A program made the position numbers and the translations under genes. From an uncultured Anaerolineae bacterium (GTDB lineage Bacteria > Chloroflexota > Anaerolineae > Anaerolineales > Villigracilaceae), in the NCBI GenBank assembly GCA_937120535.1, contig CAKZJX010000080.1, positions 1 through 46,656 on the forward strand: a stretch of DNA of 46,656 nt, read 5' to 3'. Below, one piece after another: positions 26,269 through 43,323 of the stretch. Position 1 is the stretch's first letter; every line of letters starts with the position of its first letter. The notes beneath the pieces are model-generated. The model searched no databases, had not been told where the DNA came from, and saw only the letters and a list, made by a program, of their open reading frames with translations.

Positions 26269-26335
26269 GTGGTCGAATAGGGCCCAGAGCGCTGCCCTTT
26301 GTCGGTGGATGGGGCAAATCGAGCTGTATAGAGGT

Positions 26336-26497
26336 GGGCTTGTTCTAAGTACCCTTGACACAAAAGGAGAGCCCGCTAGAGCAGGCATGGGAGGGGATCA
26401 GGGATGGAATCAGCCGCCGATTCAAGGGTCAAACGGCCTTCTTGTGACTCTTCTAGAGACAGTTCGTGCCATCCAAAGAGACTTATCGAACAAGCCC
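26336..26497 (+). mobile_element. MITE-like element, copy A, upstream of tRNA-His
   Basis: 162 bp, about 90% identical by eye to the reverse complement of 43045-43208. The ends form inverted repeats (GGGCTTGTTC at left, GAACAAGCCC at right). A 9-bp flank is repeated with one mismatch: TATAGAGGT at 26327-26335 and TATAGAGAT at 26498-26506. An inner inverted repeat (ACCCTTGA/TCAAGGGT) adds structure. It has no coding capacity of its own; the short frames in it are not conserved as proteins. It ends 8 bp before the -35 box of tRNA-His. Confidence 0.75.
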
Positions 26498-26505
26498 TAT
26501 AGAGA

Positions 26506-26535
26506 TTGTCTGCATTCGACCAAGTGTGATATAAT
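26506..26535 (+). promoter_or_regulatory. Promoter of tRNA-His
   Basis: TTGTCT (26506-26511), 18-bp spacer, TATAAT (26530-26535), 16 bp before the tRNA. The first T of the -35 box is the last base of the target duplication of the repeat element. Confidence 0.75.
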
Positions 26536-26551: not shown

Positions 26552-26624
26552 GGAGCCTGTAGCTCAACGGTAGAGCACTTGACTGTGGATCAAGGGGTTG
26601 TGGGTTCGAGACCCATCAGGCTCC
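26552..26624 (+). tRNA. tRNA-His (anticodon GTG)
   Basis: Cloverleaf with the extra 5' G (G-1) opposite discriminator C, as in tRNA-His: acceptor GAGCCTG/CAGGCTC, anticodon stem CTTGA/TCAAG with loop CTGTGGA, T loop TTCGAGA. CCA follows directly (26625-26627) and may be encoded. Confidence 0.97.
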
Positions 26625-26635
26625 CCAAACACCCA

Positions 26636-33023: not shown

Positions 33024-33545
33024 TCAGGGTGTGGTAGGCTGGGCCAAGGTGCGCAGATAGTTCACCACGTCCCATCGCTCGCGCACCGTGAGATTCTCGT
33101 TCAAGGCCGGCATACGCCCCTGAATGCCCAGGCTGATGGTCAGGAAGATCGATCCGTCGCCCTTGGACTGCACGACGGCCGAGGTCAGGTCGGCCGGGCG
33201 GTTTTTTAAGAAGGCTGCAATTTGACCGTTGCCCTGGCCTTCCGGGCCGTGACACATAGCGCAGTGGATGGCGTAGAGTTGTGCGCCGCGCGCAACCGAC
33301 ACTTCATTGGCCGGCACCGGATTGACCAAGGCCTCCGGTCCTAGCTCTATAAGATAAACCGGCCCCTGGATGGGAATAGAACGGGCAGGAGGAGGCAGGG
33401 GTTCTTCCATATCTCCAAACGAGGGTTGCAGACCCATGAAGCTGACCCATTGAATCTTGATGATATCGAAGGCAAATAACATCAATACACCCGCTAGCAG
33501 GGCAATGACGGAAAACACGACGGAGAGTTGTTTGAGCAGTCTCAT
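33024..33545 (-). CDS. actE: Alternative complex III, monohaem cytochrome c subunit ActE
   Basis: 173 residues: one N-terminal membrane helix (about 7-28), then a class I cytochrome c domain with CAMCH (C95, C98, H99) and likely axial Met in IQGRMPAL. The order in the cluster and the size fit ActE, the subunit that passes electrons out of the complex to a cytochrome oxidase. Its ATG overlaps the ActD stop by 4 nt. Confidence 0.88.
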   Translation of the reverse strand: MRLLKQLSVVFSVIALLAGVLMLFAFDIIKIQWVSFMGLQPSFGDMEEPLPPPARSIPIQGPVYLIELGPEALVNPVPANEVSVARGAQLYAIHCAMCHGPEGQGNGQIAAFLKNRPADLTSAVVQSKGDGSIFLTISLGIQGRMPALNENLTVRERWDVVNYLRTLAQPTTP

Positions 33546-42897: not shown

Positions 42898-42906
42898 GCA
42901 TGCTAG

Positions 42907-42993
42907 CGGAGAGGGCGGGATTTGAACCCGCGTCCCCTTGCGGGGAACACGCTCTCCAGGCGTGCGCGCTAGGCCAGACTACGCGACCTCTCC
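42907..42993 (-). tRNA. tRNA-Ser (anticodon GGA)
   Basis: 87 nt with a long variable arm: acceptor GGAGAGG/CCTCTCC, anticodon stem CACGC/GCGTG with loop CTGGAGA, variable hairpin TCCCC-GCAA-GGGGA, T loop TTCAAAT, discriminator G. CCA is not encoded. Confidence 0.97.
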
Positions 42994-43007: not shown

Positions 43008-43036
43008 ATTATATATCATGTGCGTTGGACGAGCAA
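43008..43036 (-). promoter_or_regulatory. Promoter of tRNA-Ser
   Basis: Minus strand TTGCTC (43036-43031), 17-bp spacer, TATAAT (43013-43008), 14 bp before the tRNA. The first T of the -35 box is the last base of the target duplication of the element next to it. Confidence 0.75.
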
Positions 43037-43044
43037 GGTGCATG

Positions 43045-43208
43045 GGGCTTGTTTAATAAGTCTCTTTGGAGGGTACGAACCGTCTCTAGAAGAGCCTCAA
43101 GAAGGCCGTTTGACCCTTGAATCGGCGGCTGATTCCATCGCTGCTCCTCTCCCATGCCTGCTCTAGCGGGCTCTCCTTGCGCGTCAAGGGTGCTTATTGA
43201 ACAAGCCC
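43045..43208 (-). mobile_element. MITE-like element, copy B, upstream of tRNA-Ser
   Basis: 164 bp, the reverse-complement sister of 26336-26497. On the minus strand it begins GGGCTTGTTCAATAAG and ends CTTATTAAACAAGCCC, a 16-bp inverted repeat with one mismatch. The 9-bp flanks match at 8 of 9 positions (AGGTGCATG at 43036-43044; AGATGCATG at 43209-43217). It is oriented with respect to tRNA-Ser exactly as copy A is to tRNA-His. It has no transposase. Confidence 0.78.
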
Positions 43209-43323
43209 AGATGCATGACCAAGATTTTTCACCCATCAGGGATCTGCATCAGCTCTTGGAGTTTGACCCGAATCTTGATACACTGAAGCCGAGATTTCTG
43301 CACAAGAAGGAGTATATATACAA

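Follow-up and report, generated by a model that had tools for sequence, protein, structure and literature searches.

A short inverted-repeat element lies eight base pairs from promoter -35 boxes in the genome of an uncultured Anaerolineae bacterium

In the genome of an uncultured Anaerolineae bacterium (Villigracilaceae; 3.11 Mb in 140 contigs), a short repeated element occupies a fixed spot relative to promoters, most often with one end exactly 8 bp from the -35 box, and this placement is well above chance. Two of its copies lie in the window, the whole stretch of 46,656 nucleotides analysed here (contig C80). We consider it probable that the element belongs, as a MITE, to an ISTth7-like insertion sequence (IS) whose transposase recognizes the -35 sequence (T^TGAC, with the caret marking the cut) and prefers real promoters besides.

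Copy A (162 bp; positions 26336..26497, plus strand) is bounded by perfect 10-bp inverted ends (GGGCTTGTTC/GAACAAGCCC). The promoter-proximal target duplicate TATAGAGAT (26498..26506, plus) ends in a T that is base 1 of the tRNA-His promoter -35 box (TTGTCT, 26506..26511, plus), which thus lies 8 bp off the element end; the distal duplicate is TATAGAGGT (26327..26335, plus). An 18-bp spacer leads to the -10 box TATAAT (26530..26535, plus), followed by tRNA-His (GTG) at 26553..26627 (plus; ARAGORN, Rfam RF00005). Copy B (164 bp; 43045..43208) is on the minus strand, as are its neighbors: the distal duplicate CATGCATCT (43209..43217), the proximal duplicate CATGCACCT (43036..43044), whose final T is again base 1 of the -35 box, the tRNA-Ser promoter -35 box TTGCTC (43031..43036), 8 bp off the copy B end, the -10 box TATAAT (43008..43013) after a 17-bp spacer, and tRNA-Ser (GGA; 42906..42993; ARAGORN, Rfam RF00005). 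The two copies are 90% identical and both turn their right end toward the promoter, and an earlier note on this DNA was correct that the element ends against a tRNA -35 box twice in the same relative orientation. Its 9-bp target duplicates are present at both copies with the final T inside the -35 box, but each pair carries one mismatch (8/9). Both -35 boxes match TTGACA weakly, and both -10 boxes are perfect. The extended -10 sequence TGATATAAT together with a weak -35 is found in the tRNA-His promoters of the window (26527-26535) and of three same-genus genomes.

A search of the genome with the 162-bp sequence of copy A gave 44 matches, copies A and B among them and one a 44-bp fragment, and the 8-bp spacing to a -35 box recurs far beyond the two copies on which the earlier note was based. 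The element has the traits of a MITE: a 164-bp consensus (43 copies), terminal inverted repeats, many copies, and no coding capacity as judged by size only. No Rfam family matched across the element at gathering thresholds, which ruled out a known RNA as its identity. Further elements with identical ends exist beyond the 44, several of them at contig ends; contigs that start or stop inside elements indicate that the assembly breaks there, so the true copy number is probably above 44. A second non-coding family has identical ends and a different interior (AAAAAATCCCCTTTTTATCCACTCCCTATTGAACAAG) and was seen at four loci (contigs C48, C67, C73 and C118); its 513-bp forms at C73 and C118 include most of the 164-bp element. 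A scan of the genome contigs for the end pattern gave, among the matches listed (80 loci of 104 stretches), at least 7 paired-end candidates, which we take as chance, their flanking 9-mers agreeing at 1-3 of 9 bases. Outside this genome, the element was absent from all 60 other genomes searched at E <= 0.001. The terminal inverted repeat pattern was present in 4 of 100 other genomes, with no partner end to complete an element within the stretches around the matches, and 11 pattern matches in viral contigs included no relative.

The spacing was measured on 87 unique non-tandem end flanks, which remained when 14 ends facing another element and 1 near-duplicate were removed from 102 distinct ends; ends with less than 45 bp of flank were left out. 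Exact TTGAC begins at offset 8 in 32 of these flanks, at offset 7 in 5 and at offset 9 in 2, and at each remaining offset from 0 to 31 in 0 or 1, for the genome stretches examined. When good promoters are taken to be those whose combined -35/-10 score is 9/12 or more, one lies exactly 8 bp from an end in 26 of 44 copies, against 0-5 copies at other offsets and 14 of 40,000 random positions. With 7-9 bp permitted, the count rises to 31 of 44, the promoter being at the left end in 16 copies, at the right end in 20 and at both in 5. Among the 13 copies below the threshold, 4 are tandem neighbors of copies that pass. At offsets from 10 to 22, a range that includes the 15-17 bp typical of known promoter-targeting transposases of the p-MULT 3/4 groups, the threshold was reached by 0 or 1 of 44 copies per offset. 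Five elements, one of them a 513-bp form, have promoter-like -35/-10 pairs about 8 bp off both ends and duplications that do not match; they have the look of recombinants between two insertions at divergent promoters.

The earlier note suggested, as one of two possibilities, a transposase guided to tRNA promoters, and only the more general part of this proposal stands: the spot relative to promoters is fixed, but a special role of tRNA promoters as targets is not supported. The 48 tRNA matches fall into 38 transcription units, of which 10 bear an element; the gap measures 8 bp in nine of them and 9 bp in one. An element is present at 6 of the 16 units whose -35 box contains TTGAC and at 4 of the 22 whose box does not. 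Of the 44 matches, 9 belong to these units, so most copies are elsewhere, the outcome that the earlier note had named as counting against its proposal. Scanning 10 proteins, several as partial sequences, showed that the first open reading frames (ORFs) downstream of other element-flanked promoters include those for ribosomal proteins L21 (rplU) and L36, IF-3 (infC), an elongation factor G, isoleucyl-tRNA synthetase, argininosuccinate synthase (argG), chorismate mutase, MtnA, a dihydroorotase-like protein and XseA. Counted by hand, 6 of 14 strong tRNA promoters (TTGAC -35, -10 of at least 5/6) bear an element, compared with 19 other strong TTGAC promoters that bear one (also a hand count) and about 44 that are free, a figure extrapolated from 10 in 709 kb. 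The resulting Fisher p = 0.36 is a rough estimate, as the 19 lack the ORF-distance filter that the 44 passed. Targeting specific to tRNA genes was dismissed as the main rule on this comparison; tRNA genes appear to be taken as strong promoters. The share of near-consensus promoters that carry an element is, very roughly, a third (20-50%, from a small count).

The -35 motif by itself does not account for these positions. Where an end has TTGAC at offsets 7-9, a -10 box of at least 5/6 follows in 25 of 39 cases (64%), whereas background TTGAC words across 709 kb of this genome have one in 30 of 1,443 cases overall and in 12 of 133 (9%) intergenic cases; the background excludes words close to elements or stretch ends and uses a rough ORF mask. 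Even for TTGAC words that precede an ORF start by no more than 250 bp the figure is 10 of 44 (p = 2e-4 against the elements). Among the 48 remaining ends, 8 have such a -10 box in the register set by offset 8, compared with 0-2 in shifted registers. These 8 include copies A and B, and 2 of the 8 are without TTG at offset 8, one of them having TTGAA at offset 7. The -10 enrichment needs something more than the motif, namely promoter DNA features, contact with the transcription machinery, or selection, and sequence alone cannot separate these.

Flanking 9-mers match at 7 or more of 9 positions at 14 of the 44 copies, 8 of them at 9/9, and do not match at the other 30. We read these 30, some of which have two-sided promoters, as possible products of recombination between copies or of assembly joins. 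In the stretches examined there are 8 element-element junctions, and the spacer is always exactly 9 bp. At least 4 of the 8 unite different element types; the same-type pairs are 88%, 97% and 83% identical, with random pairs at 88%, and the 97% pair could instead be a duplication. A ninth facing pair, at window position 33318, has a spacer of 4 bp and as many as 4 mismatches in each end; we take it to be chance. Because the 9-mer and the adjoining T^TGAC survive insertion, the site can be used again, and repeated insertion at a single base pair accounts for the arrays. That one base pair was reused at 8 junctions points to choice at insertion. Divergence from the consensus does not differ between promoter and non-promoter copies (median 0.061 versus 0.067, p = 0.24), which neither shows nor excludes selection.

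The element is in none of the 60 other genomes searched, and same-genus relatives supply empty sites of the kind that the earlier note had asked about. In these genomes, the 200 bp upstream of tRNA-His were free of it in 7 of 7 and the 200 bp upstream of tRNA-Ser in the 5 comparable loci, the other 2 giving short matches only. These element-free loci have a TATAAT- or TAAAAT-type -10 in place. Four of the 5 comparable tRNA-Ser loci carry TTGCCC or TTGCAC at the -35 position, from which the tRNA-Ser promoter, with its non-TTGAC -35, is probably older than its insertion. Synteny of tRNA-His with its upstream gene was also followed, and no tRNA was present at the 10 relatives' loci examined of 20, one of the 20 being the window's own.

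The only transposase frame identified behind ends of this kind, part of which were followed inward, is on contig C105 (18993-19461), where a 16-bp end identical to that of the MITE is followed by 143 residues and then by the end of the contig. The gene is thus incomplete, and a complete autonomous copy was not among the sequences examined, so the pairing of MITE and transposase is based on the shared ends. This transposase-bearing copy is itself 8 bp from the -35 box (TTGACG) of a tRNA gene. Its match to NCBIfam NF033579 (IS5 family) has E = 4e-8 and does not reach the curated cut-off. For this transposase fragment, for ISAae1 and for two ISTth7 proteins, Pfam matches at E <= 0.1 were to DDE_Tnp_1-type families only; PF01609 was above its cut-off for ISAae1 and one of the two ISTth7 proteins, and NF033579 was below its cut-off for both of the latter. 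A Mutator-type (p-MULT) origin was ruled out by these matches and by the 8-bp spacing. The 8-9 bp duplication and GG-starting ends of ISTth7-like members of the IS5 family are both found here. IS903, with its ends and 9-bp duplication, was considered as a further candidate. The fragment had no match at E <= 0.001 among 100 other genomes, and a draw of 400 genomes of the phylum gave relatives at E <= 1e-8 in 2 other genomes. In a phylum relative (genome G459) two copies lie 8 bp before TTGACA-17-TATAGT and TTGGCT-18-TATAAT, and in genome G463 the copy is followed by TTGACA at a distance of 8 or 9 bp, according to the placement of its end. A short remnant on contig C123 (716-790) encodes the start of a similar IS5-type transposase, with no recognizable ends in the surrounding stretch.

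ISTth7 of Thermus thermophilus resembles the element in its transposase (39-40% identical over the fragment), in its end (GGGCTTG...) and in its 9-bp duplications (9/9 at 17 of 30 paired copies). It differs in being transposase-bearing and about 1.03 kb long, in ends that diverge past GGGCTTG, and in being found also inside coding sequence. In Table 2 of PMC6352166 it is assigned to the ISH1 sub-group of the IS5 family with an 8-bp repeat, and passages of the same paper record its activity in laboratory T. thermophilus and an insertion into ago; the words "TTGAC" and "promoter" are absent from the main text on ISTth7. Our sample comprised 47 stretches from 17 of 38 matching plasmid records; from one record the argonaute copy alone was taken, its other copies resembling those of another record. 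Among 60 unique end flanks, TTGAC is at offset 8 in 18 and at other offsets in 0-2. At unique sites with duplications, one end has TTGAC at offset 8 in 11 of 18, TTG in 13 of 18 and no TTG in 5 of 18. A strict -10 (at least 5/6) accompanies 4 of the 18 TTGAC ends (1 of 10 with duplications, 3 of 8 without); a looser TANNNT accompanies 11 of 18 (5 of 10 with, 6 of 8 without) against 7 of 73 background words drawn from the stretches around ISTth7 copies (p = 1e-5). ISTth7 also enters non-promoter sites: one Thermus copy has a 9/9 duplication and no -35-like box, and in an HB27 derivative (NZ_CP144686.1, 23634-24662) the argonaute gene is interrupted at TTGACG with the 9-bp duplication AAGCCCACG. 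ISAae1, on Aquifex aeolicus plasmid ece1, likewise has an IS5-like transposase (31% identity) and a 9-bp duplication (AACCAAGGT), and it lies 8 bp from TTTACA with TATACT 16 bp further on; its ends are less alike (AAGCCCG.../GAGCCTG...), and the comparison is based on one copy.

These observations suggest the following mechanism. An IS5-family transposase similar to those of ISTth7 and ISAae1, to which the shared ends point, would mobilize the MITE in trans, and the target would be chosen at insertion and not through later selection. One end would attach at a point 8 bp upstream of the -35-like box and the opposite strand would be cut 9 bp off, between bases 1 and 2 of the box (T^TGAC), and the resulting 9-bp duplication would keep the promoter whole and restore the target. 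Sigma region 4 covers the -35 box in the promoter complex, which makes it likelier that the transposase itself recognizes T^TGAC than that it acts on a target occupied by polymerase. On this view the -35 sequence is most likely recognized directly, to one side of the cut, as DNA and not through RNA polymerase, with an added preference for real promoters that may come from promoter DNA features or from a promoter-bound protein. The tRNA genes would be targeted because their promoters are strong.

There are other ways in which the pattern could have arisen. RNA polymerase or a sigma factor could guide the transposase to promoters, as proposed for TnGBS, leaving TTGAC as a mere footprint. We regard this as possible though doubtful. 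It would explain why a good -10 is enriched beyond TTGAC (25/39 versus 10/44), why 8 ends without TTGAC at offsets 7-9 are still in register with one, why 4 of 22 non-TTGAC tRNA-unit promoters are used at exactly 8 bp, and why ISTth7 TTGAC ends are followed by TANNNT in 11 of 18 cases against 7 of 73 in the background. It does not fit the entry of ISTth7 into TTGAC within the argonaute coding sequence, and a bound polymerase should block a cut within the -35 box, the site of sigma region 4. Alternatively, insertion could follow TTGAC alone throughout the genome, with selection then purging nearly all copies except those just upstream of factor-independent promoters, where an insertion disrupts nothing. 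That 43 of 44 copies break no ORF with at least 150 nt on each side (1 of 44 possibly does), when 1,310 of 1,443 background TTGAC words are in coding sequence, is what such purging would give, as is the more frequent -10 at ISTth7 ends without duplications (TANNNT 6/8 versus 5/10; strict -10 3/8 versus 1/10). We nevertheless think this explanation rather unlikely: a good -10 accompanies 9% of intergenic TTGAC words and 64% of those at elements, promoter association does not rise with copy divergence, and the same base pair was reused at 8 junctions.

Two further explanations were considered. The earlier note had raised the possibility that selection favors the element for an effect on tRNA transcription, and the fixed 8-bp spacing and the several housekeeping genes downstream are what would be expected of an activating element or a regulator site kept at a set distance. 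However, either end can face the promoter (16 left, 20 right), duplications and 9-bp-spaced arrays arise from transposition alone, and the transposase-bearing ISTth7 and ISAae1 have the same spacing. Selection of this kind is not needed to explain the positions, and we judge retention as a transcription regulator to be improbable. The pattern could also have been made by chimeras in a fragmented assembly, in which several contigs end within elements and most copies are without matching duplications, but misjoins cannot bring promoters that are not related to a single distance, nearly matching duplications flank each of copies A and B, and Thermus plasmid records described as complete have the same spacing. 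An assembly origin is thus very improbable, and we return to the reading in which an IS5-type transposase recognizes the -35 sequence and favors real promoters.

The yeast elements Ty1 and Ty3 are retrotransposons that integrate at tRNA genes. The element described here resembles them in its integration beside tRNA promoters and differs in kind and in having no specific tRNA preference. For Ty3, the integrase contacts TFIIIB and TFIIIC (PMC3942029). The earlier note was aware of no bacterial MITE with such target choice. Promoter-directed insertion in bacteria is, however, established for ISLre2/TnGBS (p-MULT 3): according to Guerillot et al. 2014 (PMC3942029), these elements enter at a distance of 15-17 bp ahead of the -35 box of sigmaA promoters and produce duplications of 8-9 bp. 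The same source describes a similar but weaker promoter signal for some ISKra4-group ISs (p-MULT 4). Like these two groups, the present element keeps a fixed distance, and its near-perfect inverted ends go with promoters on either side. Unlike ISLre2/TnGBS, with a Mutator-type transposase, a distance of 15-17 bp and a cut outside the box, it is probably IS5-type and sits at 8 bp, with the cut within the -35. IS5-type promoter targeting with a cut inside the -35 box would be new relative to the Mutator-type cases. The available text of a review of prokaryotic MITEs (PMC10969869) does not name promoter-targeted insertion and does not contain the word tRNA.

Promoter-targeted transposition is thereby indicated in a family other than the Mutator type, with the cut inside the -35 box. 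Because ISTth7 is reported to be active in laboratory strains of T. thermophilus (PMC6352166), reading of DNA and a need for RNA polymerase can be told apart by direct test. In the genome studied here, a considerable fraction of strong promoters has one and the same sequence upstream. This provides a natural experiment on the regions that precede promoters, and the element is a marker for locating real promoters in an unstudied lineage. A bolder version, which we put forward tentatively and hold to be less likely than its negation, is that the IS5-type transposase senses working promoters through the -35 sequence together with promoter DNA state or the transcription machinery, and has in this way spread the MITE to, very roughly, a third of near-consensus promoters, always at the same position and leaving them unbroken. 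If so, the system would be a bacterial counterpart of the promoter-targeting yeast Ty elements, with an enzyme and a position unlike those of TnGBS/ISLre2.
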